A stretch of 64,000 bases of DNA from Apus apus (taxonomy: Eukaryota; Chordata; Aves; Apodiformes; Apodidae). Each line of letters opens with the position of its first letter. Position 1 is the stretch's first letter. The DNA lies in contig NC_067312.1 of assembly GCF_020740795.1 (NCBI RefSeq), positions 41,190,905-41,254,904 of the forward strand, written 5' to 3'. The position numbers and the translations under genes are program-made. Shown piece by piece: positions 38,503 to 64,000 of the stretch. Under the pieces are notes generated by a model, which saw only the letters and a program-made list of their open reading frames with translations, had not been told where the DNA came from and did not search any database.

Positions 38503-39990
38503 ATGCCCACCTCCCCCCCACCACAGCCCAGGGAGAGCAGGGCTACGGAGCTGGACAACCGCTGTCCCATCTGCCTGGGCAGCCGAGAGGGCACCAGCTA
38601 CGTGCTGCCGTGCCTGCACCAGTTTTGTTACAGCTGCATCCTGCACTGGGCCCGCAGCAAGCCCGAGTGCCCCCTCTGCAAGAGGAGGATCTGCTCCATT
38701 GTGCACTCGGTGCAGGCAGATGACAACTTTGAGGAGCATGTCATCTTGCCACCTGCATCTCCACCAGCTGTCCACCAGCAGTCAGGAGGAGGTCCTGGCC
38801 ATCCAGCTGTCCACAGCCCTGCAGCATCAGGACAAGAGCCTGCGGGGCTGGTGCCCGGGGCACCTCCAGGTGACCTGCAGCCCGACATCTGGGCGACTCT
38901 TTTCCAGGAACGCCCAGCTCTCCTGCCGACCCTTGTGCCCTGGATCCTGGAGGAGCTGGAACTGTCCATGCAGAACCAGCATTCTGTGGCAGAGGTGATG
39001 GAGGATCTTGTTGTGCCCCTTCTGGTCCTCTTCAGGCTGGAGGAAGACACACTGAACCAGCTCCTGGGGTCCTCCCTCCAAAACGTCACGGCGACATTTT
39101 TGGAGCCACCTGTTCAGGCCGCCATGGAACGGGCCATCAGGGAGGCGTGCCAGCTGCTGGGCCTGCAGGGTCGCCGTGCTGCCGAGAGGCAGGAGTGTCC
39201 TGCTGCCTCCCGAAGGCATCCTCCTCTCAGCAGGCCCCGTGCAAGAAGAGCACGAAGGCGCTCAGCCCCTCGGCGCTCCCCTCCCGCTGCGCCGCCCCAG
39301 GCACAGGTGGTGGAGTCGGGGCCCAGGGCTGCAGTGGGCGGCCTCCAGCCTGACACCTGGGCCACCCTGTTTGACGACCACCCGGCCCTCCTGCAGCGCA
39401 TTATGCCCTGGGTCCACCAGCAGCTGGGGCAGATCTTTGCGGAGCAGCCTTCCGTTGCCGTCACCCTGGGGGAGCTCGTCACGTGTGTCCTGGGCCTCTC
39501 CGGGCTGGACCAAGAGGCCCTGCTCCGGCTGCTGCAGGACAGCCTCCAGGATCGCGCTGCCAGGTTTGTTGAAGACCTCCTCAACGTGGCTGTGCAGCGC
39601 TGCGGCAGGGAAGCTCACCAGCTGCTGGGCCTGCAGGGCCGCGGGGCTGCCGAGAGGCGGGAGCGTCCTGCTGCCTCCCCAAGGGGGCCTCCTGACTCCG
39701 GTCCAGGCCCCTCCAGCAGCCCTGCGGGAGCCCCTGAAGACGAGCGTCCCACCACCTCAGCTGCTGCTCTTCAGGGGGCTCCCAGAAGCACCACCAGCAT
39801 CCCCATTCCCGCCCGTGGGGAGCAGGAAGAGCAGCTTGAGGATCCGGAGGAAGCTGTGCCCGGTCCCTCGACTCCCAGCCAGGGCAGGGACTGCTCCCCT
39901 GGGAGGCCACGGCGAGCCCCGAAGAGGAGAGCCAGCAGTCCCCAGGACTCCTCCCAGCCCCCCAAGAGGCCACCCCGCCAGCAGCAGTAG
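38503..39990 (+). CDS. TOPORS-like RING-finger protein with duplicated 112-residue module
   Basis: This intact frame encodes 495 residues and probably an E3 ubiquitin ligase. Residues 21-59 form a C3HC4 RING: C21, C24, C37, H39, C42, C45, C56, C59. The following segment HSVQADDNFEEHVILPP matches the TOPORS-type RING flank. Residues 125-236 and 281-392 are two gapless copies of a helical module (start LQPDxWATLF, end AAERxExPAAS), about 50% identical by eye. Between them is an Arg-rich linker. The C-terminus is Pro/Ser-rich with basic clusters (PRRAPKRRASS), a likely nuclear signal. An in-frame stop lies at 38,455, and a good acceptor (tttcctag) ends at 38,457, so the exon probably starts at 38,458 after a 123-bp intron. 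ATG 38,503 is the first in frame. TOPORS itself is about twice as long, so this is a diverged or derived copy, not the parent gene. Confidence 0.8.
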   Translation: MPTSPPPQPRESRATELDNRCPICLGSREGTSYVLPCLHQFCYSCILHWARSKPECPLCKRRICSIVHSVQADDNFEEHVILPPASPPAVHQQSGGGPGHPAVHSPAASGQEPAGLVPGAPPGDLQPDIWATLFQERPALLPTLVPWILEELELSMQNQHSVAEVMEDLVVPLLVLFRLEEDTLNQLLGSSLQNVTATFLEPPVQAAMERAIREACQLLGLQGRRAAERQECPAASRRHPPLSRPRARRARRRSAPRRSPPAAPPQAQVVESGPRAAVGGLQPDTWATLFDDHPALLQRIMPWVHQQLGQIFAEQPSVAVTLGELVTCVLGLSGLDQEALLRLLQDSLQDRAARFVEDLLNVAVQRCGREAHQLLGLQGRGAAERRERPAASPRGPPDSGPGPSSSPAGAPEDERPTTSAAALQGAPRSTTSIPIPARGEQEEQLEDPEEAVPGPSTPSQGRDCSPGRPRRAPKRRASSPQDSSQPPKRPPRQQQ

Positions 39991-43229: not shown

Positions 43230-43825
43230 GATATTTTCACTGTTTTTTTTTTCACTGCTTTGCTGATTGTTTAATGTTTGATATTTCCACTGTTAGTTGT
43301 TTGACTGTTTCACTGTTCAGCTATTTAAACGATTTACGTTTACACCAAATTCCTTCAGTATTTTGCTGTTTAATTGTTTAAATATCTTATCTTTTCAGTG
43401 TGGATTTTTCACCACTTCACTGGTTAATTGTTTAAATGCTTTAATTTACACTGTTCAATTGTTTTACCCTTTTGCTGTTTAATTCTTTAAATGTTTTAGA
43501 TTTACACTGCTTAATTTTTTGACTGTTTTGCTGTTTCATTGCTTCAATGTTTTAAATTTGCAGTTTAATTATATCATTGTGTAATTGGTTAAATGTTTAC
43601 ATCTTTCTTGTTTAAATCTACTTGTTTAAATCTTTCATAGTTTCACTGTTTAATTATTTCTCTGTTTCACTGTTTAATTGTTGAAATATTTTATAATTAC
43701 ACTGTTTAATTTTTTGACTGTTTTGTTGTTTCATCGTCTAAATGTTTTATATTTACACTGTTTAATTAAAACACTGTTTACTTGGTTAAATGTTTTATAT
43801 TTACACTCTTTTCACTGTGTCCACT
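43230..43825. repeat. T-rich degenerate minisatellite (CTGTTTAATTGTTTAAATG-like)
   Basis: Short motifs such as cactgtttaattgtttaaatgttttatattta recur many times with variation. A longer block (ctgtttaattttttgactgtttt) returns after about 184 bp (43,516 and 43,700). The tract is AT-rich in an otherwise GC-rich neighbourhood. It contains short open frames only because it lacks complexity. Confidence 0.75.
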
Positions 43826-45456: not shown

Positions 45457-47095
45457 TCATGCAACATAATCTGAATCCGTGATAAGATTAAGTGGAGTAG
45501 ACCACCTTCGAAAAGCCCAAACAAGTGCAGCTAGTTCCACAATTTGAGGGGATCGGGGAACAGCAGTTATGTCTGAGTCCCATCGATTAGACTGAGAATG
45601 CCACCATAAAATGACTGATTTGTGTGACCTCCCAGACCCGTCTGTAAAACCTGTAAGGGCCTGTGATGGCTGGTTGCTTCTTTTAGGCATAGGCACCAAA
45701 TTAAAGCCAGTGGTAAAAAGCCTGTGCTGAGGTGGATGGGATGTAAGTTGGCCTGTATAATCTGCCAATGCCACAGCAAAAGTGTCTGACCGCTGGTTTA
45801 GCCACTGTAGATAAATATCGGTAACAGGCAAACAGATACAGCAAAAGTCCACGCCTGCCAGCAACAACAAACATTGCCAAGCCTTAACCATCAAAAAGGC
45901 GAACATCTTGTGCTGGGTTAAGATAGTCTTTGTTGGCTGATTTGATAAAAAGACCCACTCAATAATGAGCAGGGGATCTGACATTTGAGGATCCCACTGA
46001 AGTATTAGCGCATGAGGCTGCTGGGCAGGATTTAAAAGAATAAGGTGAAAAGGCAACCCAGGAGCCCATCGATGTGCTTGCCTGACCATTATTGCCGTGG
46101 CAACCTTCTGTAAAGATTGAGCGGCTTCTGGGCTAAGACTGCGAGGAGAACGTAAGTCAGCGTCCCCTTTTAACAGGGCAAACAGAGGGGCTAGTTCTGC
46201 ATTGGAGATTCCTAACAGCGGTCGGACCCAGTTTATTGTTCCCAGTAATTTCTGTGCATCATGTAGGGTCTCAATGTTTGCCTTTATCTGTAAGGGCTGA
46301 GGGGTTATGGTCTGAGCTCTTATGTGCCAACCTAAATATTTCCATGGTGCTGTTTTTTTCTGAACCTTTTCCGGCGCAATACAAAGGCCTGCTTTAGTAA
46401 CAGCAGCCGTGACAAGGGCTAAAGCTTTCTCCATGGCTTTCTGGTGTTGTGCAGCCACGAGGATATCATCCATATAATGATATAATAATGCATCAGGCAC
46501 TGCAGCCTGAATAGGACTAAGTACCCTAGCCACATACCACTGACAGGTTGTAGGGCTGTTCTTCATTCCCTGTGGCGGAACAACCCAGTGATATCTCTGT
46601 AACGGAGCTTGCATATTGACGCTTGGGACTGAAAAGGCAAATTTAGGAGCATCGTCCGGATGCAATGGGATATTGAAAAAGCAGTCTTTAAGATCAGTAA
46701 CAGTTAGATGCCAATGTCTGGGAATCATAGTGGGAGAGGGGAGCCCTGGTTGGAGGGCTCCCATATCTTCTATAGCGTCATTCATTTTTCTTAAGTCATG
46801 GAGCAAGCGCCACCTGCCAGTTTGTTTTTTAATAACAAAAACTGGTGAATTCCATGGACTAGTGGAAGGCACAATATGCCCCCTCTTTAACTGTTCCATG
46901 ACTAGTTCTTGAAGGGCGCGAAGCTTTTCTAGTGGTAGGGGGCCATTGATCTACCCAAATGGGAGTGTTTATCTTCCAAGTTAACTGTAGGGTGTCGCAC
47001 ACTTCAATGACCCCTCTAAAAATGGGTCTGAATAGAAATCCCTCATTGTGATAACACATCATGCCCCCATAAAACCGTAGGGACAGGTAATACAA
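45457..47095 (-). pseudogene. Class II ERV reverse transcriptase and RNase H
   Basis: An open frame of 480 codons (46,899-45,457) carries the RT fingers, the PQGMKNSP block and the catalytic YMDD (YHYMDDILVA, near 46,475). RNase H follows with acidic residues in FTDGSGRS, VELAAL and TDSDYV. RT sequence also extends upstream to about 47,095 in other frames, so the true start is not preserved. The frame ends just inside RNase H. RT would copy the viral RNA into DNA. Integrase after it is mostly deleted. Confidence 0.88.
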
Positions 47096-47202
47096 AGGGT
47101 TGCACGGGGGCCATATGGCCTTCTGGGCTCCGGATTTGAAGCAACTCAGTACTCTGGTGACTTTTGCCAGTTCCCCCTATTCAGGCCAATGCTTGAGATA
47201 CA

Positions 47203-47619
47203 TTAGCATCGTGGGGGCCACTTGGCCTGAGAAATGACCATTACATCAGCTCCAGTGTCTATTATTCCACTTAATGCTACTTGTTGTCCTTTATAGATAA
47301 GGATACATTGACACATAGGGCGTTTTTGTGAAATGGTTTGCACCCATAAAATCTGTGGGTTCCCTGTAGATCCAAACCCTCCCCACCTTTGTTGTGGTTC
47401 ATAGGTGGAAGAAGTGTTTTCCCCCCTAGAAACCAGCATCAGTTGTGCTATACGACTACCTTTCGGCACTGTACAGGGAGGAAATGGGGTCCAGGCCATG
47501 ATTTTAATTTCTTCATTACTGTCAGAGTCAATGACCCCAGGTAACACAAAGAGTCCTGACAATGATGTAGATGATCTTCCTAACAAAAGTGCCTGCATAT
47601 TAGGGGGTAAAAGTCCCAA
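47203..47619 (-). pseudogene. Class II ERV dUTPase-protease region
   Basis: The N-terminal part has dUTPase motifs: GVIDSDSNEEIKI, PKGSRIAQLML and a terminal GGFGSTG. It is followed by the aspartic protease active site SGIIDTGADVMVIS. A dUTPase fused ahead of the protease is a betaretrovirus trait. The frame differs from gag, so expression would need a ribosomal frameshift. The frame stops soon after the active site, and the flap and C-terminus of the protease are not seen in it. Confidence 0.8.
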
Positions 47620-47662
47620 AACATTTCTTGAAAGTAAAAATGAACAGAAGAGTCAAGTAACG

Positions 47663-49275
47663 TTACTGCGTGGGAGGTTGCCAGGTCCAGTCCGGCGCTG
47701 CCAGCTGTTGCTGGGGGAAGACTTGAGGCACTGATGCTTCCCTCTGCTGAGGCTGTGACATCGGCTGTAGCACTTGTGTCTGCGAGCGACGCCGACCCGC
47801 GCTCCGTGACCGGTTTCCCTGCAGCAGCTGTCCCTGGAAGTTATACTTAGATCGACACTGATTAGTATAATGACGTCCTTTCTGGCATCTCGGACAGATC
47901 CCAGAGGCTCTAGTTCTAACCCCCCCTTTTGTTGCCAGACAGTCTTTTTTCAGGTGTCCTGGTTTCCCACACCCATAACAATTCCCCAAGCCTGATGGAC
48001 CTTTCATAGCTGCAAAAGCGGCAGCCATAGCCTCATATTTATGATCTACAGTACCTATCCTGTTACAGGCTTCAACCATCTCAATCAAAGTAGGATTTTG
48101 ATTAGGCGGGGAATTCAACAGCTTTTTACAATCAGCATTAGCATTTCCAACAGCTAGCTTTAACAACAATATTTCCCTAGTTTCCGAGTTATCAATTTGA
48201 CTCTTCAAAGCCTGTTTCAACCTATCAATAAACTGCATATAAGGCTCTCGGGGTTCCTGAGTAATGGTGGTAAAAGCCTTTTGTGGTCTTTGTAAGTCAG
48301 GGACCTTGAGAAAGGCTTTTCTAGCCTCTTCGCAAACTGCTTCAAGGGCTTCCCGCGGACACTCTCGAGCTTGCGTCACCGTGTCTGTATGCTGACCCGT
48401 GCCAGTAAGGTGTTCAAGGGTAAGCGTGGCCAGTGCTGCATTGTTATGTCCTGCATACGTTAAGTGGAGGGCCTGAAGCCCCCTCCTCCAGTTTGAGTCC
48501 CATAAGGAATACTGAGTCGGGGTCAGTAGCAGCTGCGCTAAAGACTTTAAATCATGAGGAGTCATTACATACATATCAAACACCGAATTAAGGAGGCTGG
48601 CAAAATATGGGGAGGAAAGCTCATGTTCTGTGATGGTGTGGCGGAGCTCCTTAATGACCGAAAAAGACAGGGCTTCCCATTGCGGATTCCGCCCCTGGGC
48701 TTGGTACATGACAGGAGCAACGATTCTCTCAGCAATGTCCAGGTCTTTCTCTTTTAGAGCCTGCCGTCTTATAGAAGCCCTGGATTGGGGGGGTACAGGG
48801 CCGGCTCATCCTCCGGGTTAATAGAACCTGGGTCTAGGGGGTTATCTGGAGTATGACCTGCTGCATACGCACCCAAAAGTTTGGAATGTTGGGGTGGATT
48901 TTCTGACATGGGTTCAGTAGGTGATCCCCCTGACAGTAACAAAGGAGGCACTGTAGGGGTTTCCACAGAAGCAGTGGCTTGCGGTCCTATGCTCTGTTCT
49001 TGGGCTTTCAAAGTCTCAAATATCCCCCTCCACCATGGGAGCATGCGCTCTGCCCCCACATTCCCGGTTGCTGCCACGTCCCACAGTTTAACACCAACAT
49101 TGCTACAAAATTCCCATGTAAAAACACCAGACGCAGTCACGGTGGGTATTTTGATCTGCACCCACTTAAGCACCGCTTTAAGGTCATGCTCGGGAAAGTT
49201 CCTCCCATGTTTTTTAAGGAGACACTTCATTAAATTATAAACGTCTCTTTCTGGGGGAGATACTTGATTCCCCAT
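47663..49275 (-). pseudogene. Class II ERV gag
   Basis: The start is ATG at 49,275 (MGNQVS), a myristoylation signal; the matrix-like part runs to a stop at 48,769. A frame change near 48,770-48,790 leads into the long second part (to 47,663) with capsid and nucleocapsid. That part holds the major homology region (QEPREPYMQFIDRL) and two CX2CX4HX4C zinc knuckles, CYGCGKPGHLKKDC and CPRCQKGRHYTNQC. Gag would assemble the particle. Apart from the break near 48.78 kb it is unusually well preserved. Confidence 0.85.
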
Positions 49276-49404
49276 GTTTCCCACAGCTCACCTCCCAGTT
49301 CCGGAGGGATTTCAGGTCGGCTGGCTCCCGCTTCCTTTCAGCGGCTCATTCAACGCCCTGTGGGGCTCGACGCAGACCTCTTCAGCGAGGCGGATCGTCG
49401 ACCC

Positions 49405-49422
49405 ATCACGTCGGGGCCACCA
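49405..49422 (-). other. Primer binding site, tRNA-Trp type
   Basis: The - strand reads TGGTGGCCCCGACGTGAT. This differs at one position from the tRNA-Trp primer site I know for avian alpharetroviruses. It lies three bases inside the LTR end, as expected. Confidence 0.8.
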
Positions 49423-49425
49423 ATT

Positions 49426-49848
49426 TGCGGCGACTAAGAGATGGGACGCAGCTTGATGCAAGCAAAATGCCGTTTATTTTATACACAGGCTGCCTTTTAT
49501 ACACATTTTCACTGTCCACACGACTCCTGTTCCTGTTTCATTGGTTCCCTTAACCTGTTCACGCAGCAGTCATGCTCTCAGCGTAACTCCACATCGGCTG
49601 CCTTTCTCAAAATGCTACTTTTTTAGCTAAGCGCAAGTTTCCTTATCTAAATGCAGGCTTTAGCACATTCCTCTGCTCACATACCTTAGATTTACTGCGG
49701 CTTCTTACTATTTGCTTCTCAGGGTCAGTGCTTTTCCACTTCACTTGGCTGCATTCTATTCCCATGGTTTACAACCTACAGGGCCAGAATATCTCCTCCC
49801 ATTAATTAATCAGTGGTATGAGTTTTACTCCCCAGAAATTCTCATTCA
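49426..49848 (-). mobile_element. Class II ERV 5' LTR
   Basis: On the - strand the element starts TG (49,848) and ends CA (49,426-49,427), 423 bp. It carries TATAAAA (complement of 49,495-49,501) and AATAAA (complement of 49,473-49,478) near its end, so U3, R and U5 order is visible. The right border abuts the first unit of the tandem array. No second LTR is found at the left end of the provirus. Confidence 0.85.
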
Positions 49849-50002
49849 TGTGCCTCTGCCATCAACATGTGGAAGAAGGGGAGGTGGAGAGCAGAGCTGA
49901 GCGCAACGCAGGAGCAGAGGGGAGAGCAGTGCGTGCAGGAGAGAGGACAGGGAGGGAGAGGAGAACTGCCCACAACTTGTCCTGGGGACAGCCTGGAGCT
50001 TT

Positions 50003-50035
50003 GGGGTGAAATAACGGAGTAATTGGATTCACCCC
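50003..50035. repeat. Inverted repeat in array spacer
   Basis: ggggtgaa (50,003-50,010) is matched by ttcacccc (50,028-50,035), an 8-bp stem with a 17-base loop. It is repeated in units 2 and 3. Confidence 0.6.
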
Positions 50036-50141
50036 GTTAACATCTTAATGAGCTGCAACAAAGAGCCCCCCACCCTTTGAGCAGGCGTGGTGACTTTCAA
50101 TGCAGCCACTTTCAATGGCAGCGAGGGCTTAGTTAAACAAT

Positions 50142-50206
50142 CACGTGTGTGAGTGTCAGAAAAATGTGACGAGATCAAGTTCTTTCTGGTATTTTGGGTA
50201 TAAAAG
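50142..50206 (+). promoter_or_regulatory. E-box and TATA box facing + strand in the array spacer (unit 1)
   Basis: CACGTG at 50,142-50,147 and TATAAAAG at 50,199-50,206 point away from the end of the - strand gene. They recur in unit 2 (TATA 54,881-54,888) and unit 3 (59,562-59,569). Downstream lies a G-rich degenerate repeat (aaggggtgtgc-like, about 50,230-50,420). No ATG-started frame of note follows, so any product would be non-coding. Confidence 0.4.
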
Positions 50207-50620
50207 CAGCCCCTGTGCTTTGGGAAGCAAAGAGTTTGGGTGTGCCAAGGGGTGTGTGGAGTCACAGGGATGTGTCAAGGGGTGTGCGAGGAGGGCTAAG
50301 GGGCGTGCAGCGTCAGCCTGTGCAGAGGGGTGTGTGAAGGCCCCGTGTGCACAAAGGAAGGGGTGTGCAAAGGGTTTGCACGTGCATAGGAGTGTGCAAT
50401 GGCAGAGGAGCGTGTAAAGGGCTGCGAGAGGTCCGGGCTGTCAAGGGGGGTCCCGTCCCACTAGGGGGGGTCGGGGGAGGTGACCTTTTAGACAGTCTGT
50501 TGCAGGGCCAGGAGCCACCACGAGGACTCAGGAGGAACAGAAACATCCCAGCAGCCCCTGTCACTCGGCCAGCCCTGGGGTGGAAGTCACGACAATGGCT
50601 CCTAAGTGGTCACAAAAGGC

Positions 50621-50626
50621 TTTATT
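50621..50626 (-). terminator. Polyadenylation signal of array gene copy 1
   Basis: AATAAA on the - strand, followed by a T/G-rich stretch (CCTTTTGTGACC). It gives a 3' UTR of about 515 bp containing a duplicated ctaactactaggggctaagg motif (50,768 and 50,802). An alternative AATAAA lies closer to the stop at 50,946-50,951. Equivalent signals occur at 55,302-55,307 and 59,983-59,988. Confidence 0.6.
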
Positions 50627-51138
50627 CCACACATGCCTGACTAATTAGGAGTCGGGGATATCCTGCATAAACATCTTAATGTCTAACAGGGAGGTTAGAT
50701 AACTACACTTAACACTTAACTAAGAAGACAACACTCAACACCCCACAAAGAGGTAACTACACCGAACGCCTAACTACTAGGGGCTAAGGGAACATCAAAC
50801 ACCTAACTACTAGGGGCTAAGGTCACAAGGTGCTGCTGGGCCCAGAGCAGGGGCAGCACAGGGGCTCTCCAGCTCTGCCTGCGGCACAGCTCTCGCCTGC
50901 ACCCCCTGTCACCCCCAGACGCTCCCTGGGGGGAACCTGTGAGATTTTATTGTGCCCAAAGCAGGCAGGGCCGAGCAGAGGGGCTGGCAGCACCATGTCC
51001 ATCAGGGCTGTCCGCTGCAGCTGAGTGCCTGGAGCAGTGCCCGTGCCCCCATCCCTCGCGGGCCTCCCCGGGCCGCTCCTCCGGGCGCTGCGCAGGCTCA
51101 GGGACCCGCCTGGCGCTGGCACGGGAGGAGCTGGGCTC

Positions 51139-54100
51139 CTAGCTCTGTCTGGCCCTGCTGGAGAAGCAGAAAGCCCTGCGCAGAGCCTTGAAGATCCTCC
51201 TGAGGAGGGAGGGCCGGTGCTGCCGGGCCTGGGCCCGTGGGAGCGCGGCGATGGCTGAGGCGGAAGGAGAAGTGCGGGCGAGGGGCTGGGTGGGTGACGG
51301 GCAAGCTGCTGCCTGCTGCTGGGCTGCTGGGGCAGGGTGGGCTGTTTGGGCCTCAGCATCCTCAGCTGCCTGGACCGCTCTTGTTCTTGCTGCCCTTGCC
51401 TCACCCGTGCTGTTGGCAGGTTCCTCGCTCTCTGCCTCTGCTGCTGTGACCTCCTCGATGGGTCCCTGGATCACAGTAACCCCAGCCCCGCCTGTGACCT
51501 GGCTCACAGTGCACTGGTTGGTGTCCATAGGAGTCAGGTCATCACGTGAGGGGCTGTGCAGGGCAGCTTCTTTGAGTTCTTCCTCTGCTGCTGTGACCTC
51601 CTGGCTGGGTCCCTGGGACACAACCACAGCCCTGCCTGTGACCTCACTCATGGTGAACTGTTCAGAGTCCAGCAGAGTCAGGTCATCATGAGAGGGGCTG
51701 TGCAGGGCAGGTTCCTGTTCCTCACTCTCTGCCTCTGCTGCTGTGTCCTCCTCGATGGGTCCCTGGGACACAACCACAGCCCTGCCTGTGACCTCACTAA
51801 GGGTGAACTCTTTGGTCTCCAGCAGAGTCAGGTCATCATGGGCGGGGCTGTGCAGGGCAGGTTCCTCACTGTCTGCCTCTGCTGCTCTGTCCTCCTGGCT
51901 GGGGCCCCGGGACACAAGCAAAGCCCTGCCTGTGACCTCACGCACAATGCACTGGTCTGTGTCCAGCAGAGCCAGGTCATCATGGGCGGGGCTGTGCAGG
52001 GCCGGTTCCTTTTGCTCTGCCTCTGCTGCTGTGTCTTGCTCCTTGAATACAGGAGCTGGTGCTTTGGCCTTGTCTTGTGCCGCAGGATCCAGAGGCCCCT
52101 CTTCCTCAACAGCTCTGACCAGGGCAGAAGCTGCCAGCTCAGCTTCTATGATCCTCGCGGAGTCAGAAGATGGGCTCTGCTGGTCACCAGCTGCCTCTCT
52201 TGCAGACTCTGTGCTTGAGCTGCTGGGTTGGCTGGGTCTCTCCTTGGAGCAAGTGTAGGGGTCCTGAAGGAGCTCTGGGGACAAGGGCTTGACTCCAATC
52301 CTGTAGCCACTGATAGCATCTGTTTGAGACAGCTGCTGGTGGCTGTCGCCTTCTTTCTCCTCCTCCTCCTTCTGGGTCAAGGCCCCTGGTTTGTCTGCTG
52401 CTGCTGGCAGGACTTTCCTCCCTGCTGCCCCCACCTGATGCTCTCTGGGTCCATGGGCTTCCAGCCACTCCAATGTGTCCTGGCTGCCCAGGGCAGCCTT
52501 TGGGATTTCCCTCCGTGGGACCTCTAGCTGATGCAGCTTCAAGCTCACTTTGCAGACCTGGAAAGGAGAGCACAGGGATGATGGTAAAGGCAGCCTGGCG
52601 CCCAGCAGCAGATGCCTGGTGGGGACCTGCCAGCAGTGGTTGCTGTGGCACGGATGCAGGAGATGATGGGGCTGCAGCTCTGCAGAGCAGCAGCTGACTC
52701 CAAGCCGAGGGAGGCTCCATCACCCTGTCCTGCCCCCACCCACACCCTCCTTGGCACTCACGTTCTTGGCTCGGACATTGAGCTGCAGCGGCCTCGTAAG
52801 GGAGAAAGACTGCTCCTCGCCCTCCTGCTGCTGGAGCTGCCTCTCCTCTGGGATGTCCTGCTGCCCCTGCAGGGTGGCTTTGCTGGGCTGGGCCGGGCCC
52901 TGCTGGCTGGAGGCCAGACAGCTCCTCTCCTGCACCTCCAGACGCACCGTCTGGATGGGCAGGACTGACATGTGATCGACAGGAGCTGGACGCGGCGACA
53001 GCTGTGCTGTGATGCTCAGCTGGCCCACAGCGCACTTGAAGTTGTCTTCTGCCGCTGGTCCCCGGCATCCTGGTCCCGCGTCCCTGCCCGGGGCAGCAGG
53101 CACGGGGGCCGTGCCAGCAGCACTGCTGCCCCGATGTGCACGGGGGGCAGCAGGCAGGGGCTGAGCTGCAGGGGCCTGGCCGCCCTCAGCTGCCCGGCCC
53201 TCGGCTGCCCTGGTCAGTGTGGCCACAGCTGAGCTGCCTGCCCAGTCCTGCCGTGCCACCGGCTGCCGGCCGGGTCCCCAGAGCTCGGTGACAGCCCTGC
53301 TGATGGCCTCACGGACCAGGCACCGGGCTGTGCCCTGCCGGGCGGGGGCAGAGGCTGCGGGGCTGTGTGGGGCAGGCCTCCAGCTCTGCGCCCTGGCGGC
53401 ACTGCTGCCCCACTCATCCCAGACGCCCTGAGCAGGCGGGACGGGCTGTTGGTGGTGGCTGCCTGCAGCGCTGCGGGATGTGCCGCTGGGTGAAGGTGCA
53501 GCAGGTGCGGCTGGCAGAGGGGGCAGCTTGGGGCAGGAGCTGGCAGCCACTTCCCTGCCTGCAGCACTGCTGGACCTGCCCCTGCCGCTGGGCAGTGGTG
53601 CAGCGGGTGCGGCTGGCAGAGGGGGCAGCTTGGGGCAGGTGCTGGCAGCCACTTCCCTGCCTGCAGCGCTGCTGGACGTGGCCCTGCCGCTGGGCAGTGG
53701 TGCAGCGGGTACGGCTGGCAGAGGGGGCAGCTTGGGGCAGGTGCTGGCAGCCACTTCCCTGCCTGCAGCGGCGCTGCTGGACCTGCCCCTGCCGCTGGGC
53801 AGTGGTGCAGCGGGTGCGGCTGGCAGAGGGGGCAGCTTGGGGCAGGTGCTGGCAGCTCTTGGCGTTGCCTGCCCAGGTGCCGCTGCCTGCCTGGGGAGTT
53901 GTGGCAGGGATAAGCGACGGGCTGTCTGCTGCTGTGCCACCTTGTACACCAGGCTGTCCGACTGCAAGAGAAGCCAAGGAGAGAGGCTGCGTGAGTGTGG
54001 CCTTCATCCCTGCAGCCCCCGTGTCCCGGCTGACAGAGCTCCTGTGGCCGGGCTCCCCTCTCCTCCCACCCTGTCCCTCACATGGTGCCTCTGCTGCATG

Positions 54101-54159
54101 CCTGCTGACAGCCTCTTGGCGGGCTGAGAACGGGCCTTCTTCTCCTTCTCCATGGACAT
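51139..54159 (-). CDS. Unfamiliar 898-residue repeat protein, array copy 1
   Basis: There are three exons in the same phase: 54159-54082 (26 codons), 53961-52762 (400 codons) and 52557-51139 (472 codons plus TAG). Introns are 120 and 204 bp with GT...AG ends. Start: ATG 54,159 (MSMEKEKKARSQ), about 75 bp after the expected TSS for TATATAA at 54,269-54,263. An upstream in-frame ATG (54,276) precedes that TATA box. Exon 2 has four 34-35-residue Pro/Ala/Ser repeats (STCPKLPPLPAAPAAPLPSG, 53,505-53,880), then a more ordinary segment (FKCAVGQLSI, VLPIQTVRLEVQER). Exon 3 has four 48-50-residue acidic repeats (ALHSPxHDDLxLL ... EVTGRA) at about 51,440-52,040. The chain ends in a basic amphipathic stretch, SLLRRIFKALRRAFCF. 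I do not recognise the family, and no signal peptide or membrane segment is evident. The regular exon design, TATA box and poly(A) site argue for a real gene. Confidence 0.7.
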
Positions 54160-54262
54160 CTTGGGTGTCCACTGCTGCAGACGATCCTCAGGTGTGCGGG
54201 GGAGCTGCTGCCTCCTGAGGGAGATGCTCTCCTGCGAGTGGGCATCCCAGGGCTCGGGTTCC

Positions 54263-54269
54263 TTATATA
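54263..54269 (-). promoter_or_regulatory. TATA box of array gene copy 1
   Basis: TATATAA on the - strand, about 104 bp before ATG 54,159. The same motif is at 58,944-58,950 (copy 2) and 63,625-63,631 (copy 3). An RFX X-box-like element (gtgtccgggcaac, 54,305-54,317) lies about 35 bp upstream, with one mismatch to the GTNRCC-N-RGYAAC pattern. Confidence 0.55.
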
Positions 54270-55301
54270 CCCCCATGGTCACCACGGAGACCCCCATCAC
54301 AAGGGTGTCCGGGCAACAGGCCCCACATCACAAAGGCCTGGTGGTGGCTGTGGAGACACCCACCCCTCAGCAGCTGGGACCAGCTGGGACCGTGCTGGTC
54401 TGGTCTGGTCCTGGCTTGGTTGTAAGGGACAAGGCCCAGAGGTGGCTCCTGTAAGACGCTGCAAAGCTTCCTCGACTCCAAAACATGTGGCCACAGCTCT
54501 GGCCAAGGCCGAGGCCTCAGAGACGAGGGCTGTGCCTCTGCCATCAACATGTGGAAGAAGGGGAGGCGGAGAGCAGAGCTGAGAGCAACGCGGGAGCAGA
54601 GGGGAGAGCAGTGCGTGCAGGAGAGAGGACAGGAAGGGAGAGGAGAACTGCCCACAGCTTGTCCTGGGGACAGCCTGGAGCTTTGGGGTGAAATAACGGA
54701 GTAATTGGATTCACCCCGTTAACATCTTAATGAGCTGCAACAAAGAGCCCCCCACCCTTTGAGCAGGCGTGGTGACTTTCAATGCAGCCACTTTCAATGG
54801 CAGCGAGGGCTTAGTTAAACAATCACGTGTGTGAGTGTCAGAAAAATGTGACGAGATCAAGTTCTTTCTGGTATTTTGGGTATAAAAGCAGCCCCTGTGC
54901 TTTGGGAAGCAAAGAGTTTGGGTGTGCCAAGGGGTGTGTGGAGTCACAGGGATGTGTCAAGGGGTGTGCGAGGAGGGCTAAGGGGCGTGCAGCGTCAGCC
55001 TGTGCAGAGGGGTGTGTGAAGGCCCCGTGTGCACAAAGGAAGGGGTGTGCAAAGGGTTTGCACGTGCATAGGAGTGTGCAATGGCAGAGGAGCGTGTAAA
55101 GGGCTGCGAGAGGTCCGGGCTGTCAAGGGGGTCCCGTCCCACTAGGGGGGGTCGGGGGAGGTGACCTTTTAGACAGTCTGTTGCAGGGCCAGGAGCCACC
55201 ACGAGGACTCAGGAGGAACAGAAACATCCCAGCAGCCCCTGTCACTCGGCCAGCCCTGGGGTGGAAGTCACGACAATGGCTCCTAAGTGGTCACAAAAGG
55301 C

Positions 55302-55307
55302 TTTATT
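55302..55307 (-). terminator. Polyadenylation signal of array gene copy 2
   Basis: AATAAA on the - strand at the same relative position as in copy 1. Confidence 0.6.
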
Positions 55308-55819
55308 CCACACATGCCTGACTAATTAGGAGTCGGGGATATCCTGCATAAACATCTTAATGTCTAACAGGGAGGTTAGATAACTACACTTAACACTTAA
55401 CTAAGAAGACAACACTCAACACCCCACAAAGAGGTAACTACACCGAACGCCTAACTACTAGGGGCTAAGGGAACATCAAACACCTAACTACTAGGGGCTA
55501 AGGTCACAAGGTGCTGCTGGGCCCAGAGCAGGGGCAGCACAGGGGCTCTCCAGCTCTGCCTGCGGCACAGCTCTCGCCTGCACCCCCTGTCACCCCCAGA
55601 CGCTCCCTGGGGGGAACCTGTGAGATTTTATTGTGCCCAAAGCAGGCAGGGCCGAGCAGAGGGGCTGGCAGCACCATGTCCATCAGGGCTGTCCGCTGCA
55701 GCTGAGTGCCTGGAGCAGTGCCCGTGCCCCCATCCCTCGCGGGCCTCCCCGGGCCGCTCCTCCGGGCGCTGCGCAGGCTCAGGGACCCGCCTGGCGCTGG
55801 CACGGGAGGAGCTGGGCTC

Positions 55820-58800
55820 CTAGCTCTGTCTGGCCCTGCTGGAGAAGCAGAAAGCCCTGCGCAGAGCCTTGAAGATCCTCCTGAGGAGGGAGGGCCGGTG
55901 CTGCCGGGCCTGGGCCCGTGGGAGCGCGGCGATGGCTGAGGCGGAAGGAGAAGTGCGGGCGAGGGGCTGGGTGGGTGACGGGCAAGCTGCTGCCTGCTGC
56001 TGGGCTGCTGGGGCAGGGTGGGCTGTTTGGGCCTCAGCATCCTCAGCTGCCTGGACCGCTCTTGTTCTTGCTGCCCTTGCCTCACCCGTGCTGTTGGCAG
56101 GTTCCTCGCTCTCTGCCTCTGCTGCTGTGACCTCCTCGATGGGTCCCTGGATCACAGTAACCCCAGCCCCGCCTGTGACCTGGCTCACAGTGCACTGGTT
56201 GGTGTCCATAGGAGTCAGGTCATCACGTGAGGGGCTGTGCAGGGCAGCTTCTTTGAGTTCTTCCTCTGCTGCTGTGACCTCCTGGCTGGGTCCCTGGGAC
56301 ACAACCACAGCCCTGCCTGTGACCTCACTCATGGTGAACTGTTCAGAGTCCAGCAGAGTCAGGTCATCATGAGAGGGGCTGTGCAGGGCAGGTTCCTGTT
56401 CCTCACTCTCTGCCTCTGCTGCTGTGTCCTCCTCGATGGGTCCCTGGGACACAACCACAGCCCTGCCTGTGACCTCACTAAGGGTGAACTCTTTGGTCTC
56501 CAGCAGAGTCAGGTCATCATGGGCGGGGCTGTGCAGGGCAGGTTCCTCACTGTCTGCCTCTGCTGCTCTGTCCTCCTGGCTGGGGCCCTGGGACACAAGC
56601 AAAGCCCTGCCTGTGACCTCACGCACAATGCACTGGTCTGTGTCCAGCAGAGCCAGGTCATCATGGGCGGGGCTGTGCAGGGCCGGTTCCTTTTGCTCTG
56701 CCTCTGCTGCTGTGTCTTGCTCCTTGAATACAGGAGCTGGTGCTTTGGCCTTGTCTTGTGCCGCAGGATCCAGAGGCCCCTCTTCCTCAACAGCTCTGAC
56801 CAGGGCAGAAGCTGCCAGCTCAGCTTCTATGATCCTCGCGGAGTCAGAAGATGGGCTCTGCTGGTCACCAGCTGCCTCTCTTGCAGACTCTGTGCTTGAG
56901 CTGCTGGGTTGGCTGGGTCTCTCCTTGGAGCAAGTGTAGGGGTCCTGAAGGAGCTCTGGGGACAAGGGCTTGACTCCAATCCTGTAGCCACTGATAGCAT
57001 CTGTTTGAGACAGCTGCTGGTGGCTGTCGCCTTCTTTCTCCTCCTCCTCCTTCTGGGTCAAGGCCCCTGGTTTGTCTGCTGCTGCTGGCAGGACTTTCCT
57101 CCCTGCTGCCCCCACCTGATGCTCTCTGGGTCCATGGGCTTCCAGCCACTCCAATGTGTCCTGGCTGCCCAGGGCAGCCTTTGGGATTTCCCTCCGTGGG
57201 ACCTCTAGCTGATGCAGCTTCAAGCTCACTTTGCAGACCTGGAAAGGAGAGCACAGGGATGATGGTAAAGGCAGCCTGGCGCCCAGCAGCAGATGCCTGG
57301 TGGGGACCTGCCAGCAGTGGTTGCTGTGGCACGGATGCAGGAGATGATGGGGCTGCAGCTCTGCAGAGCAGCAGCTGACTCCAAGCCGAGGGAGGCTCCA
57401 TCACCCTGTCCTGCCCCCACCCACACCCTCCTTGGCACTCACGTTCTTGGCTCGGACATTGAGCTGCAGCGGCCTCGTAAGGGAGAAAGACTGCTCCTCG
57501 CCCTCCTGCTGCTGGAGCTGCCTCTCCTCTGGGATGTCCTGCTGCCCCTGCAGGGTGGCTTTGCTGGGCTGGGCCGGGCCCTGCTGGCTGGAGGCCAGAC
57601 AGCTCCTCTCCTGCACCTCCAGACGCACCGTCTGGATGGGCAGGACTGACATGTGATCGACAGGAGCTGGACGCGGCGACAGCTGTGCTGTGATGCTCAG
57701 CTGGCCCACAGCGCACTTGAAGTTGTCTTCTGCCGCTGGTCCCCGGCATCCTGGTCCCGCGTCCCTGCCCGGGGCAGCAGGCACGGGGGCCGTGCCAGCA
57801 GCACTGCTGCCCCGATGTGCACGGGGGGCAGCAGGCAGGGGCTGAGCTGCAGGGGCCTGGCCGCCCTCAGCTGCCCGGCCCTCGGCTGCCCTGGTCAGTG
57901 TGGCCACAGCTGAGCTGCCTGCCCAGTCCTGCCGTGCCACCGGCTGCCGGCCGGGTCCCCAGAGCTCGGTGACAGCCCTGCTGATGGCCTCACGGACCAG
58001 GCACCGGGCTGTGCCCTGCCGGGCGGGGGCAGAGGCTGCGGGGCTGTGTGGGGCAGGCCTCCAGCTCTGCGCCCTGGCGGCACTGCTGCCCCACTCATCC
58101 CAGACGCCCTGAGCAGGCGGGACGGGCTGTTGGTGGTGGCTGCCTGCAGCGCTGCGGGATGTGCCGCTGGGTGAAGGTGCAGCAGGTGCGGCTGGCAGAG
58201 GGGGCAGCTTGGGGCAGGAGCTGGCAGCCACTTCCCTGCCTGCAGCACTGCTGGACCTGCCCCTGCCGCTGGGCAGTGGCGCAGCGGGTGCGGCTGGCAG
58301 AGGGGGCAGCTTGGGGCAGGTGCTGGCAGCCACTTCCCTGCCTGCAGCGCTGCTGGACGTGGCCCTGCCGCTGGGCAGTGGTGCAGCGGGTACGGCTGGC
58401 AGAGGGGGCAGCTTGGGGCAGGTGCTGGCAGCCACTTCCCTGCCTGCAGCGGCGCTGCTGGACCTGCCCCTGCCGCTGGGCAGTGGTGCAGCGGGTGCGG
58501 CTGGCAGAGGGGGCAGCTTGGGGCAGGTGCTGGCAGCTCTTGGCGTTGCCTGCCCAGGTGCCGCTGCCTGCCTGGGGAGTTGTGGCAGGGATAAGCGACG
58601 GGCTGTCTGCTGCTGTGCCACCTTGTACACCAGGCTGTCCGACTGCAAGAGAAGCCAAGGAGAGAGGCTGCGTGAGTGTGGCCTTCATCCCTGCAGCCCC
58701 CGTGTCCCGGCTGACAGAGCTCCTGTGGCCGGGCTCCCCTCTCCTCCCACCCTGTCCCTCACATGGTGCCTCTGCTGCATGCCTGCTGACAGCCTCTTGG

Positions 58801-58840
58801 CGGGCTGAGAACGGGCCTTCTTCTCCTTCTCCATGGACAT
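55820..58840 (-). CDS. Unfamiliar 898-residue repeat protein, array copy 2
   Basis: Exons are 58840-58763, 58642-57443 and 57238-55820. The structure is identical to copy 1. It differs from copy 1 in the protein by one residue noticed by eye: Gln instead of Arg in VSxGPSQ within the first acidic repeat. There are no stops or frameshifts. The unknown function and the same alternatives apply as for copy 1. Confidence 0.7.
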
Positions 58841-58943
58841 CTTGGGTGTCCACTGCTGCAGACGATCCTCAGGTGTGCGGGGGAGCTGCTGCCTCCTGAG
58901 GGAGATGCTCTCCTGCGAGTGGGCATCCCAGGGCTCGGGTTCC

Positions 58944-58950
58944 TTATATA
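58944..58950 (-). promoter_or_regulatory. TATA box of array gene copy 2
   Basis: TATATAA, same position relative to ATG 58,840 as in copy 1. Confidence 0.55.
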
Positions 58951-59982
58951 CCCCCATGGTCACCACGGAGACCCCCATCACAAGGGTGTCCGGGCAACAG
59001 GCCCCACATCACAAAGGCCTGGTGGTGGCTGTGGAGACACCCACCCCTCAGCAGCTGGGACCAGCTGGGACCGTGCTGGTCTGGTCTGGTCCTGGCTTGG
59101 TTGTAAGGGACAAGGCCCAGAGGTGGCTCCTGTAAGACGCTGCAAAGCTTCCTCGACTCCAAAACATGTGGCCACAGCTCTGGCCAAGGCCGAGGCCTCA
59201 GAGACGAGGGCTGTGCCTCTGCCATCAACATGTGGAAGAAGGGGAGGCGGAGAGCAGAGCTGAGAGCAACGCGGGAGCAGAGGGGAGAGCAGTGCGTGCA
59301 GGAGAGAGGACAGGAAGGGAGAGGAGAACTGCCCACAGCTTGTCCTGGGGACAGCCTGGAGCTTTGGGGTGAAATAACGGAGTAATTGGATTCACCCCGT
59401 TAACATCTTAATGAGCTGCAACAAAGAGCCCCCCACCCTTTGAGCAGGCGTGGTGACTTTCAATGCAGCCACTTTCAATGGCAGCGAGGGCTTAGTTAAA
59501 CAATCACGTGTGTGAGTGTCAGAAAAATGTGACGAGATCAAGTTCTTTCTGGTATTTTGGGTATAAAAGCAGCCCCTGTGCTTTGGGAAGCAAAGAGTTT
59601 GGGTGTGCCAAGGGGTGTGTGGAGTCACAGGGATGTGTCAAGGGGTGTGCGAGGAGGGCTAAGGGGCGTGCAGCGTCAGCCTGTGCAGAGGGGTGTGTGA
59701 AGGCCCCGTGTGCACAAAGGAAGGGGTGTGCAAAGGGTTTGCACGTGCATAGGAGTGTGCAATGGCAGAGGAGCGTGTAAAGGGCTGCGAGAGGTCCGGG
59801 CTGTCAAGGGGGTCCCGTCCCACTAGGGGGGGTCGGGGGAGGTGACCTTTTAGACAGTCTGTTGCAGGGCCAGGAGCCACCACGAGGACTCAGGAGGAAC
59901 AGAAACATCCCAGCAGCCCCTGTCACTCGGCCAGCCCTGGGGTGGAAGTCACGACAATGGCTCCTAAGTGGTCACAAAAGGC

Positions 59983-59988
59983 TTTATT
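59983..59988 (-). terminator. Polyadenylation signal of array gene copy 3
   Basis: AATAAA on the - strand at the same relative position as in copy 1. Confidence 0.6.
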
Positions 59989-60500
59989 CCACACATGCCT
60001 GACTAATTAGGAGTCGGGGATATCCTGCATAAACATCTTAATGTCTAACAGGGAGGTTAGATAACTACACTTAACACTTAACTAAGAAGACAACACTCAA
60101 CACCCCACAAAGAGGTAACTACACCGAACGCCTAACTACTAGGGGCTAAGGGAACATCAAACACCTAACTACTAGGGGCTAAGGTCACAAGGTGCTGCTG
60201 GGCCCAGAGCAGGGGCAGCACAGGGGCTCTCCAGCTCTGCCTGCGGCACAGCTCTCGCCTGCACCCCCTGTCACCCCCAGACGCTCCCTGGGGGGAACCT
60301 GTGAGATTTTATTGTGCCCAAAGCAGGCAGGGCCGAGCAGAGGGGCTGGCAGCACCATGTCCATCAGGGCTGTCCGCTGCAGCTGAGTGCCTGGAGCAGT
60401 GCCCGTGCCCCCATCCCTCGCGGGCCTCCCCGGGCCGCTCCTCCGGGCGCTGCGCAGGCTCAGGGACCCGCCTGGCGCTGGCACGGGAGGAGCTGGGCTC

Positions 60501-63500
60501 CTAGCTCTGTCTGGCCCTGCTGGAGAAGCAGAAAGCCCTGCGCAGAGCCTTGAAGATCCTCCTGAGGAGGGAGGGCCGGTGCTGCCGGGCCTGGGCCCGT
60601 GGGAGCGCGGCGATGGCTGAGGCGGAAGGAGAAGTGCGGGCGAGGGGCTGGGTGGGTGACGGGCAAGCTGCTGCCTGCTGCTGGGCTGCTGGGGCAGGGT
60701 GGGCTGTTTGGGCCTCAGCATCCTCAGCTGCCTGGACCGCTCTTGTTCTTGCTGCCCTTGCCTCACCCGTGCTGTTGGCAGGTTCCTCGCTCTCTGCCTC
60801 TGCTGCTGTGACCTCCTCGATGGGTCCCTGGATCACAGTAACCCCAGCCCCGCCTGTGACCTGGCTCACAGTGCACTGGTTGGTGTCCATAGGAGTCAGG
60901 TCATCACGTGAGGGGCTGTGCAGGGCAGCTTCTTTGAGTTCTTCCTCTGCTGCTGTGACCTCCTGGCTGGGTCCCTGGGACACAACCACAGCCCTGCCTG
61001 TGACCTCACTCATGGTGAACTGTTCAGAGTCCAGCAGAGTCAGGTCATCATGAGAGGGGCTGTGCAGGGCAGGTTCCTGTTCCTCACTCTCTGCCTCTGC
61101 TGCTGTGTCCTCCTCGATGGGTCCCTGGGACACAACCACAGCCCTGCCTGTGACCTCACTAAGGGTGAACTCTTTGGTCTCCAGCAGAGTCAGGTCATCA
61201 TGGGCGGGGCTGTGCAGGGCAGGTTCCTCACTGTCTGCCTCTGCTGCTCTGTCCTCCTGGCTGGGGCCCTGGGACACAAGCAAAGCCCTGCCTGTGACCT
61301 CACGCACAATGCACTGGTCTGTGTCCAGCAGAGCCAGGTCATCATGGGCGGGGCTGTGCAGGGCCGGTTCCTTTTGCTCTGCCTCTGCTGCTGTGTCTTG
61401 CTCCTTGAATACAGGAGCTGGTGCTTTGGCCTTGTCTTGTGCCGCAGGATCCAGAGGCCCCTCTTCCTCAACAGCTCTGACCAGGGCAGAAGCTGCCAGC
61501 TCAGCTTCTATGATCCTCGCGGAGTCAGAAGATGGGCTCTGCTGGTCACCAGCTGCCTCTCTTGCAGACTCTGTGCTTGAGCTGCTGGGTTGGCTGGGTC
61601 TCTCCTTGGAGCAAGTGTAGGGGTCCTGAAGGAGCTCTGGGGACAAGGGCTTGACTCCAATCCTGTAGCCACTGATAGCATCTGTTTGAGACAGCTGCTG
61701 GTGGCTGTCGCCTTCTTTCTCCTCCTCCTCCTTCTGGGTCAAGGCCCCTGGTTTGTCTGCTGCTGCTGGCAGGACTTTCCTCCCTGCTGCCCCCACCTGA
61801 TGCTCTCTGGGTCCATGGGCTTCCAGCCACTCCAATGTGTCCTGGCTGCCCAGGGCAGCCTTTGGGATTTCCCTCCGTGGGACCTCTAGCTGATGCAGCT
61901 TCAAGCTCACTTTGCAGACCTGGAAAGGAGAGCACAGGGATGATGGTAAAGGCAGCCTGGCGCCCAGCAGCAGATGCCTGGTGGGGACCTGCCAGCAGTG
62001 GTTGCTGTGGCACGGATGCAGGAGATGATGGGGCTGCAGCTCTGCAGAGCAGCAGCTGACTCCAAGCCGAGGGAGGCTCCATCACCCTGTCCTGCCCCCA
62101 CCCACACCCTCCTTGGCACTCACGTTCTTGGCTCGGACATTGAGCTGCAGCGGCCTCGTAAGGGAGAAAGACTGCTCCTCGCCCTCCTGCTGCTGGAGCT
62201 GCCTCTCCTCTGGGATGTCCTGCTGCCCCTGCAGGGTGGCTTTGCTGGGCTGGGCCGGGCCCTGCTGGCTGGAGGCCAGACAGCTCCTCTCCTGCACCTC
62301 CAGACGCACCGTCTGGATGGGCAGGACTGACATGTGATCGACAGGAGCTGGACGCGGCGACAGCTGTGCTGTGATGCTCAGCTGGCCCACAGCGCACTTG
62401 AAGTTGTCTTCTGCCGCTGGTCCCCGGCATCCTGGTCCCGCGTCCCTGCCCGGGGCAGCAGGCACGGGGGCCGTGCCAGCAGCACTGCTGCCCCGATGTG
62501 CACGGGGGGCAGCAGGCAGGGGCTGAGCTGCAGGGGCCTGGCCGCCCTCAGCTGCCCGGCCCTCGGCTGCCCTGGTCAGTGTGGCCACAGCTGAGCTGCC
62601 TGCCCAGTCCTGCCGTGCCACCGGCTGCCGGCCGGGTCCCCAGAGCTCGGTGACAGCCCTGCTGATGGCCTCACGGACCAGGCACCGGGCTGTGCCCTGC
62701 CGGGCGGGGGCAGAGGCTGCGGGGCTGTGTGGGGCAGGCCTCCAGCTCTGCGCCCTGGCGGCACTGCTGCCCCACTCATCCCAGACGCCCTGAGCAGGCG
62801 GGACGGGCTGTTGGTGGTGGCTGCCTGCAGCGCTGCGGGATGTGCCGCTGGGTGAAGGTGCAGCAGGTGCGGCTGGCAGAGGGGGCAGCTTGGGGCAGGA
62901 GCTGGCAGCCACTTCCCTGCCTGCAGCACTGCTGGACCTGCCCCTGCCGCTGGGCAGTGGCGCAGCGGGTGCGGCTGGCAGAGGGGGCAGCTTGGGGCAG
63001 GTGCTGGCAGCCACTTCCCTGCCTGCAGCGCTGCTGGACGTGGCCCTGCCGCTGGGCAGTGGTGCAGCGGGTACGGCTGGCAGAGGGGGCAGCTTGGGGC
63101 AGGTGCTGGCAGCCACTTCCCTGCCTGCAGCGGCGCTGCTGGACCTGCCCCTGCCGCTGGGCAGTGGTGCAGCGGGTGCGGCTGGCAGAGGGGGCAGCTT
63201 GGGGCAGGTGCTGGCAGCTCTTGGCGTTGCCTGCCCAGGTGCCGCTGCCTGCCTGGGGAGTTGTGGCAGGGATAAGCGACGGGCTGTCTGCTGCTGTGCC
63301 ACCTTGTACACCAGGCTGTCCGACTGCAAGAGAAGCCAAGGAGAGAGGCTGCGTGAGTGTGGCCTTCATCCCTGCAGCCCCCGTGTCCCGGCTGACAGAG
63401 CTCCTGTGGCCGGGCTCCCCTCTCCTCCCACCCTGTCCCTCACATGGTGCCTCTGCTGCATGCCTGCTGACAGCCTCTTGGCGGGCTGAGAACGGGCCTT

Positions 63501-63521
63501 CTTCTCCTTCTCCATGGACAT
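60501..63521 (-). CDS. Unfamiliar 898-residue repeat protein, array copy 3
   Basis: Exons are 63521-63444, 63323-62124 and 61919-60501. It appears identical to copy 2 at both DNA and protein level. All splice sites, the TATA box (63,631-63,625) and the AATAAA (complement of 59,983-59,988) are retained. Confidence 0.7.
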
Positions 63522-63624
63522 CTTGGGTGTCCACTGCTGCAGACGATCCTCAGGTGTGCGGGGGAGCTGCTGCCTCCTGAGGGAGATGCTCTCCTGCGAG
63601 TGGGCATCCCAGGGCTCGGGTTCC

Positions 63625-63631
63625 TTATATA
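63625..63631 (-). promoter_or_regulatory. TATA box of array gene copy 3
   Basis: TATATAA, same position relative to ATG 63,521 as in copy 1. Confidence 0.55.
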
Positions 63632-63892
63632 CCCCCATGGTCACCACGGAGACCCCCATCACAAGGGTGTCCGGGCAACAGGCCCCACATCACAAAGGCC
63701 TGGTGGTGGCTGTGGAGACACCCACCCCTCAGCAGCTGGGACCAGCTGGGACCGTGCTGGTCTGGTCTGGTCCTGGCTTGGTTGTAAGGGACAAGGCCCA
63801 GAGGTGGCTCCTGTAAGACGCTGCAAAGCTTCCTCGACTCCAAAACATGTGGCCACAGCTCTGGCCAAGGCCGAGGCCTCAGAGACGAGGGC

Positions 63893-64000
63893 TGTGCCTC
63901 TGCCATCAACATGTGGAAGAAGGGGAGGCGGAGAGCAGAGCTGAGAGCAACGCGGGAGCAGAGGGGAGAGCAGTGCGTGCAGGAGAGAGGACAGGAAGGG
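63893..64000 (-). repeat. Tandem array unit 4, first 108 bp
   Basis: The start motif recurs at 63,893 and the sequence follows unit 2 to the window end, so the array extends further right. Confidence 0.93.

Follow-up and report, generated by a model that had tools for sequence, protein, structure and literature searches.

Near-identical tandem copies of a member of an unnamed, lineage-amplified bird gene family in Apus apus, with apparent kinship to FSIP2

In the available parts of the sources cited here, fibrous sheath-interacting protein 2 (FSIP2) is described as a giant, several thousand residues long and containing several FSIP2 domains (PMC11276731, PMC9830513), the human protein having 6907 residues (PMC11276731). 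As far as the same partly available sources report, AKAP4 is a binding partner of FSIP2, and sperm tails are disrupted when FSIP2 is lost (PMC11276731, PMC9830513, PMC12523343). Among bird multicopy genes, Z-linked testis amplicons are described for chicken in the available part of PMC3403216, which cites Bellott 2010. In the present study, a 64,000-nt stretch of Apus apus DNA was analyzed (hereafter the window; positions 41190905-41254904 of contig C36, which is 77.8 Mb long, in the 1.10-Gb assembly). The window contains a gene for an 898-residue protein, repeated head to tail in three near-identical copies. Judging from its sequence, the protein is a member of a bird family that has no name, was amplified in this lineage, and is related to FSIP2. 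With moderate confidence, the array is read as one gene of this family that was recently triplicated in tandem and whose product is a probable sperm-tail scaffold.

The array was described in the initial annotation as three full head-to-tail units with part of a fourth, and units 2 and 3 were said to look identical. Both statements were borne out when the units were delimited by repeat search and self-alignment, as follows.

49849-54530 (-), array unit 1 (4682 nt), 99.83% identical to unit 2, left end cut by a proviral long terminal repeat (LTR)
54531-59211 (-), array unit 2 (4681 nt), identical to unit 3
59212-63892 (-), array unit 3 (4681 nt), from self-alignment
63893-64000 (-), first 108 nt of a partial fourth unit, without coding sequence
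49428-49848 (-), LTR of 421 nt (TG...CA) of a minus-strand endogenous retrovirus, adjoining the array at 49849

Self-alignment gave 0 differences between units 2 and 3 over 4681 nt. Units 1 and 2 differed by 7 substitutions and 1 indel, and five of these eight differences lay within the first 130 nt of unit 1, at the array edge. When the DNA past the window was included, the fourth unit gave a match of 940 nt with 2 mismatches, followed by a short gapped part. As the fourth unit consisted of spacer only, also when the DNA past the window was included, the assembly has three gene copies at this place. The left edge of the array was the LTR joint of the endogenous retrovirus and no natural array end; thus, the array may formerly have been longer. 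Multiple near-identical intact copies were found in total, namely, the three in tandem (99.8-100% identity) and a fourth, inverted copy located 1.18 Mb from the array. The inverted copy was intact, coded for 896 residues, kept all four splice sites, and had 97.3% identity over 4.1 kb of alignment. The interpretation in the initial annotation thus holds for a real, multicopy, and recently homogenized gene, and the germline and sex-chromosome link that it suggested is putative. The full-length identity of units 2 and 3 also speaks for a copy number that is partly an assembly artefact, in which these two units represent an unknown number of real ones. This explanation is considered improbable, as both array edges are unique, each with its own differences, and the fourth copy 1.18 Mb away is independent.

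Two further observations concern the DNA in and beside the array. In the adjoining retrovirus (45457-49848, minus strand), pieces of p24 gag, a zinc finger, and reverse transcriptase were recognized, along with a single LTR next to the gene array; a second LTR was not found within the window. Downstream of the gene in each unit, at 50560-50826 (minus strand) in unit 1, an LTR-like part with a second AATAAA was recognized by eye, and no clear target-site duplication was seen by eye.

In all three units, the complete three-exon gene with a TATA box, short introns, and a poly(A) signal that had been proposed for each unit was recovered. The features of unit 1, whose exon model repeats in units 2 and 3 at +4681 and +9362, were as follows.

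54082-54159 (-), exon 1, coding part (78 nt)
52762-53961 (-), exon 2 (1200 nt)
51139-52557 (-), exon 3, ending with the stop codon (1419 nt)
54263-54269 (-), TATA box TATATAA, inside a promoter block also present in relatives at other loci of this genome
50946-50951 (-), poly(A) signal AATAAA, read from the sequence

The introns were 120 and 204 nt long with GT-AG borders, and the product was 898 amino acids with one stop in every unit; the unit 1 protein differed from that of units 2 and 3 by a single residue change, Q643R. A promoter block that takes in the TATA box and the 5' leader was conserved in 14 aligned rows from approximately 12 loci. The palindromic GGTCTCCATGGTGACC, which we take to resemble an RFX X-box, was present in some of these rows and as variants in others. 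The earlier statement that approximately 2.7 kb of coding sequence is open in all copies stood for the three units, but the openness of exon 2 is weak evidence when taken alone, because exon 2 was also fully open in 6% (first-order) and 47% (second-order) of 500 simulations with the same base-neighbor frequencies as the sequence. Exon 3 was fully open in 0 of 500 simulations under either model. The junction of exons 2 and 3 was spanned in the alignment by the uninterrupted homologue P0009 from Theristicus, which supports it, and the sequence just past this junction was missing in homologue P0002 and others.

The gene was found to be multiplied across the genome. A search with exon 3 gave at least 102 matches, located on C36 and at least 28 other contigs (90 of 108 candidates were scored, and locus classes were counted by hand from the match list). 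At least 14 further loci, on C11, C62, C67, C76, C83, C21, and C19, had matching stop-to-stop frames 459-1008 residues long, and diverged family members were found on C4. In addition, at least 35 short relatives were present, almost exclusively on small contigs; 14 of these carried a TAG in frame, and on C19 two loci had a TGA in the C-terminal part. Clusters lay close to contig ends, namely, within the first 100 kb of C11, on C21 near 8.4 Mb, and on C19. On inverted-repeat checking, two of four loci, on C19 and C63, were palindromic, their longest arms being 99-100% complementary. In a tree built from the initial part of exon 3 of 19 copies of this genome and 6 other birds, a split with support 0.98 divided the C36, C19, C21, and small-contig copies from the other birds and the two members on C4, and the copies grouped by place.

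The short relatives were observed on C11, C28, C32, C39, C47, C54, C63, C65-C70, C74, C77, C85, C86, C88, C93, C99, C104, and C106, many with 139-residue frames. The palindromic pairs of gene relatives spanned 210-9968 of locus L013 and 1-8682 of locus L015, on C19 and C63.

These patterns bear on a Z-linked or selfish amplification by intragenomic conflict, in which copy number and identity would reflect germ-line drive and counter-drive and not a need for dose. The palindromes, the expansion in this lineage compared with the tree's six other species, and the high ratio of nonsynonymous to synonymous substitution rates (dN/dS) with open frames are in line with it, as is the large contig C36 being out of size order; C36 may be the Z chromosome, although its size rank among the contigs compared is a hint only. 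As family matches lie on at least 28 contigs besides C36 and the present array comprises three genes only, such an origin is given little credence.

Selection was evaluated by comparing the array gene with the inverted copy, which gave a dN/dS of 0.62 overall and 0.45 outside the repeats (Fisher p 0.058 for each). Strong purifying selection was rejected, because dN/dS was too high. Over the initial part of exon 3, seven diverged relatives showed no stops where 3-8 were expected under neutrality, the stretches having been chosen by tblastn, which favors open ones. The gene therefore appears, on these comparisons, to evolve fast while its reading frame is kept. The same data were weighed for a non-functional repeat family with open frames due to GC-rich, stop-poor sequence. 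The composition-expected openness of exon 2, a dN/dS near 1 in many pairs, and the TAG- and TGA-interrupted loci among the relatives agree with that explanation. It is nevertheless very improbable, given the unexpected openness of exon 3, the lack of exon 3 stops in the seven relatives (with the tblastn choice in mind), the preservation of all four splice sites by the inverted copy, and the annotated homologous proteins in eight other birds.

Homologues of the 898-residue product were found in two protein searches, each with 8000 candidates scored. They were uncharacterized bird proteins of eight species, from Calonectris, Morphnus, Phalacrocorax, Tyto, Podargus, Harpia, Bubo, and Theristicus; the first search gave seven of these species, and the second gave six of the seven again and Theristicus. 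The protein, first reported as unrecognized, thus has relatives that tie it to FSIP2, and the family still has no name. The homologues shared the Pro/Ala-rich and acidic parts and, in most cases, the N-terminus, and the basic C-terminus was clear in P0002, P0004, and P0006. A search with residues 500-898 gave no match and also missed the known homologues, and its negative outcome does not speak for absence; perhaps its 8000-candidate list was filled by low-complexity words. No characterization of the bird homologues was found. In narrow searches of the open-licence literature, no title indicated an account of an FSIP2-related bird gene family, and nothing was found linking FSIP2 with an A-kinase anchoring amphipathic helix in sperm.

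The 898-residue protein contained 17.7% Ala, 10.6% Pro, and 10.2% Ser, and the following parts were recognized in it (unit 1 positions).

53481-53856 (-), 34-residue Pro/Ala/Ser-rich repeat, 3.7 copies, exon 2, from repeat search
53260-53373 (-), first 39-residue PHSP-helix-GPxQQP module, residues 223-260, exon 2
51460-52002 (-), four further PHSP-helix-GPxQQP modules, residues 612-792, exon 3, none fitting the strict RII motif described below
52762-52977 (-), main part of the FSIP2-like segment, which as a whole spans residues 355-432 and positions 639-716 of Pfam profile PF15783 (E 0.059, below cut-off)
52540-52557 (-), last 6 residues of the FSIP2-like segment, in exon 3
51163-51216 (-), conserved basic C-terminal part, residues 874-891, aligned with P0002, P0004, and P0006

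The kinship with FSIP2 was determined with PF15783, a profile of 875 positions with a cut-off of 27 bits. Residues 252-369 of P0009 matched above the cut-off (E 1.3e-10, 40.4 bits). A script-made family consensus matched both without P0009 (E 3.1e-9, 35.9 bits) and with it (E 2.7e-13), while shuffled and reversed controls gave no match. A hand-typed consensus gave E 1.1e-14. The best match lay at the same place of the profile, below the cut-off, in a C4 relative from the same genome (E 3.7e-4) and in P0008 (E 0.003); cut-out pieces of P0002 (E 0.04) and P0004 (E 0.083) also had their best match there below the cut-off, as did a piece of the window protein (E 0.093 and 0.059; 11.1 and 11.8 bits). 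No Pfam match was obtained with the full 898 residues of the window protein or with its other two scanned pieces. Weak Pfam matches in homologues and frames of the same genome (phospholamban, OapB, DUF6658, and others) were set aside, being below the cut-off and not common to the relatives. Sequence searches of the PDB gave nothing or weak unrelated matches only, whether made with the window protein, P0002, P0009, a consensus, or either of two module profiles, and tRNA and Rfam scans returned nothing. The window protein is taken, on these profile scores, as related to FSIP2 over one segment; it is not classed as an FSIP2, because it is below the cut-off and the kinship is limited to that segment.

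The composition of the protein, the name mucin-1-like borne by the Tyto homologue, and the confinement of the FSIP2 match to one segment could also be accounted for by a fast-evolving, mostly disordered mucin-like or epithelial protein outside sperm, with the likeness to FSIP2 being a short borrowed or convergent coiled segment. This is regarded as unlikely, as no signal peptide was seen by eye in the N-terminus, and several relatives give the match at this very place of the profile, with silent shuffled and reversed controls.

The PHSP-(spacer)-helix-GPxQQP module of 39 residues occurred once in exon 2 and four times in exon 3 of the window protein. A module profile covered 32 stretches in eight proteins (the window protein and P0002-P0008), 2-5 in each, of which two were too weak for alignment and a few were partial. 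The hydrophobic spacing of the module helix was like that of helices docking to RII of protein kinase A (PKA), and the modules were scored with the strict 12-residue spacing pattern of RII docking. In other birds, the strict motif was found in 20 of 25 aligned stretches (16 of 20 distinct), compared with 11% of shuffles. In the window protein, one module of five fitted, that of exon 2. Across the genome, 8 of 60 stretches fitted (6 of 38 distinct; 3% of shuffles); all eight were among the 26 exon-2-type stretches, and none of the 34 of other types fitted. An earlier count of 21/32 from a partly hand-picked set was superseded by this full count, which is less favorable for Apus apus and lowers the odds of the scaffold reading and of the wider proposal given below. 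Similarity to seven peptides of A-kinase anchoring proteins (AKAPs) gave a mean z of 1.64 for a partly hand-picked set of 32 modules, composed of 26 of 30 aligned rows (4 short ones dropped) and 6 hand-picked from the 60 stretches of this genome; the MAP2 peptide among them matched PDB chain 8s8o_C, named MAP2. The docking pattern in this species appears to survive in the exon-2 module only, which is a lead towards putative PKA-RII binding.

If the array gene encodes a sperm-tail scaffold, the following mechanism may be proposed. Each array copy carries its own conserved TATA promoter, and the product would be a mostly low-complexity scaffold, with a short conserved N-terminus followed by Pro/Ala-rich repeats, the FSIP2-like segment, the modules, and the basic C-terminus, exon 3 being acidic. 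The protein would be made in spermatids and placed in the flagellum, where the FSIP2-like segment and the basic tail may tie it to tail structures. The exon-2 module would dock dimerization/docking domains of PKA RII or its sperm relatives, and the exon-3 modules of this species are probably past docking. Unequal crossing-over and gene conversion could keep neighboring copies alike and alter the dose.

In favor of a sperm-tail scaffold related to FSIP2 are the homologues in eight other birds, the PF15783 matches of the family, the exon 2/3 junction spanned by P0009, the recurrence of the module, the excess of the strict RII motif over shuffles in other birds and in exon-2-type stretches, the intact fourth copy, the exon 3 stretch free of stops, and the published role of FSIP2 in the sperm tail. 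Several results weigh against it. The window protein alone stayed under the PF15783 cut-off (11.1 and 11.8 versus 27 bits), and only approximately 80-120 residues are in common with the 875-position profile. No FSIP2 match was obtained for P0005, whole or as a piece, for P0003, P0006, and P0007 scanned whole, or for seven of eight scanned frames of the same genome. The FSIP2 scan of this genome was also silent, and as the control genomes were silent too, it is uninformative. For the modules, the strict RII motif is missing from 4 of 5 in the window protein and from 52 of 60 stretches in this genome, the latter including every one of the 34 that are not exon-2-type stretches; Pro stands inside the module helix in several relatives of this genome, and PDB profile searches with the modules returned no AKAP peptides. 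The pooled dN/dS between internal repeats was 0.85-0.90, and that of copies compared over the initial part of exon 3 was 0.39-1.06. Moreover, neognath birds are described, in the available part of the source, as having no fibrous-sheath ribs and longitudinal columns (PMC11276731).

A wider proposal can be made only tentatively and is rather unlikely to hold in full. It sees an undescribed, fast-evolving bird family of short FSIP2-related, PKA-docking sperm-tail scaffolds. Repeated amplification would have formed its tandem arrays and palindromes, which lie on a Z-like chromosome, close to the ends of contigs, and on small contigs, under germ-line conflict in a lineage that has lost its classical fibrous sheath. 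If the scaffold reading is true, a large unnamed bird gene family gains a likely sperm-tail role, and an expanding FSIP2-related family would be unexpected in neognath birds, with their reduced fibrous sheath. The near-identical copies and palindromes would then be a candidate for the study of concerted evolution, copy-number effects on sperm, and bird sex-chromosome conflict.

Apart from the array, the window contained a 510-residue open frame with a C3HC4 RING finger (38458-39990, plus strand), which we take to resemble avian Topors-like genes. An integrase core domain at 36406-37275 (plus strand) belonged to another retroelement, and AT-rich tandem repeats with periods of 56 and 195 nt lay at 43428-43802, between the RING gene and the retrovirus.

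Finally, the locus was compared with the closest described systems. Like FSIP2, the family has a segment that matches the profile at approximately 626-751, above the cut-off in P0009 and the consensus sequences. Unlike the giant FSIP2 with several FSIP2 domains, the window gene has three exons and codes for 898 residues with one partial segment, whereas human FSIP2 is given as 6907 residues in the available part of the source (PMC11276731). The bird proteins LOC142087876 (Calonectris), LOC142063224 (Phalacrocorax), and mucin-1-like (Tyto) are alike in the Pro-rich part, the modules, the acidic part, and mostly the N-terminus, but differ in being 29-53% identical over the best local alignment. 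With AKAPs of the MAP2 and AKAP-IS type, the modules share the hydrophobic helix spacing, strictly so in the 20 other-bird stretches, and one window module has 7 of 22 positions identical with MAP2; they differ in that most window modules fail the strict motif and no AKAP peptides came from the PDB profile searches, and RII binding by the modules is a prediction. As in the chicken Z amplicons, near-identical multicopy bird genes were found here on a large contig, which may be the Z. In contrast to those amplicons, only three tandem copies are present, and the family extends to other contigs; the chicken Z amplicon gene is probably a different gene from that of the array.

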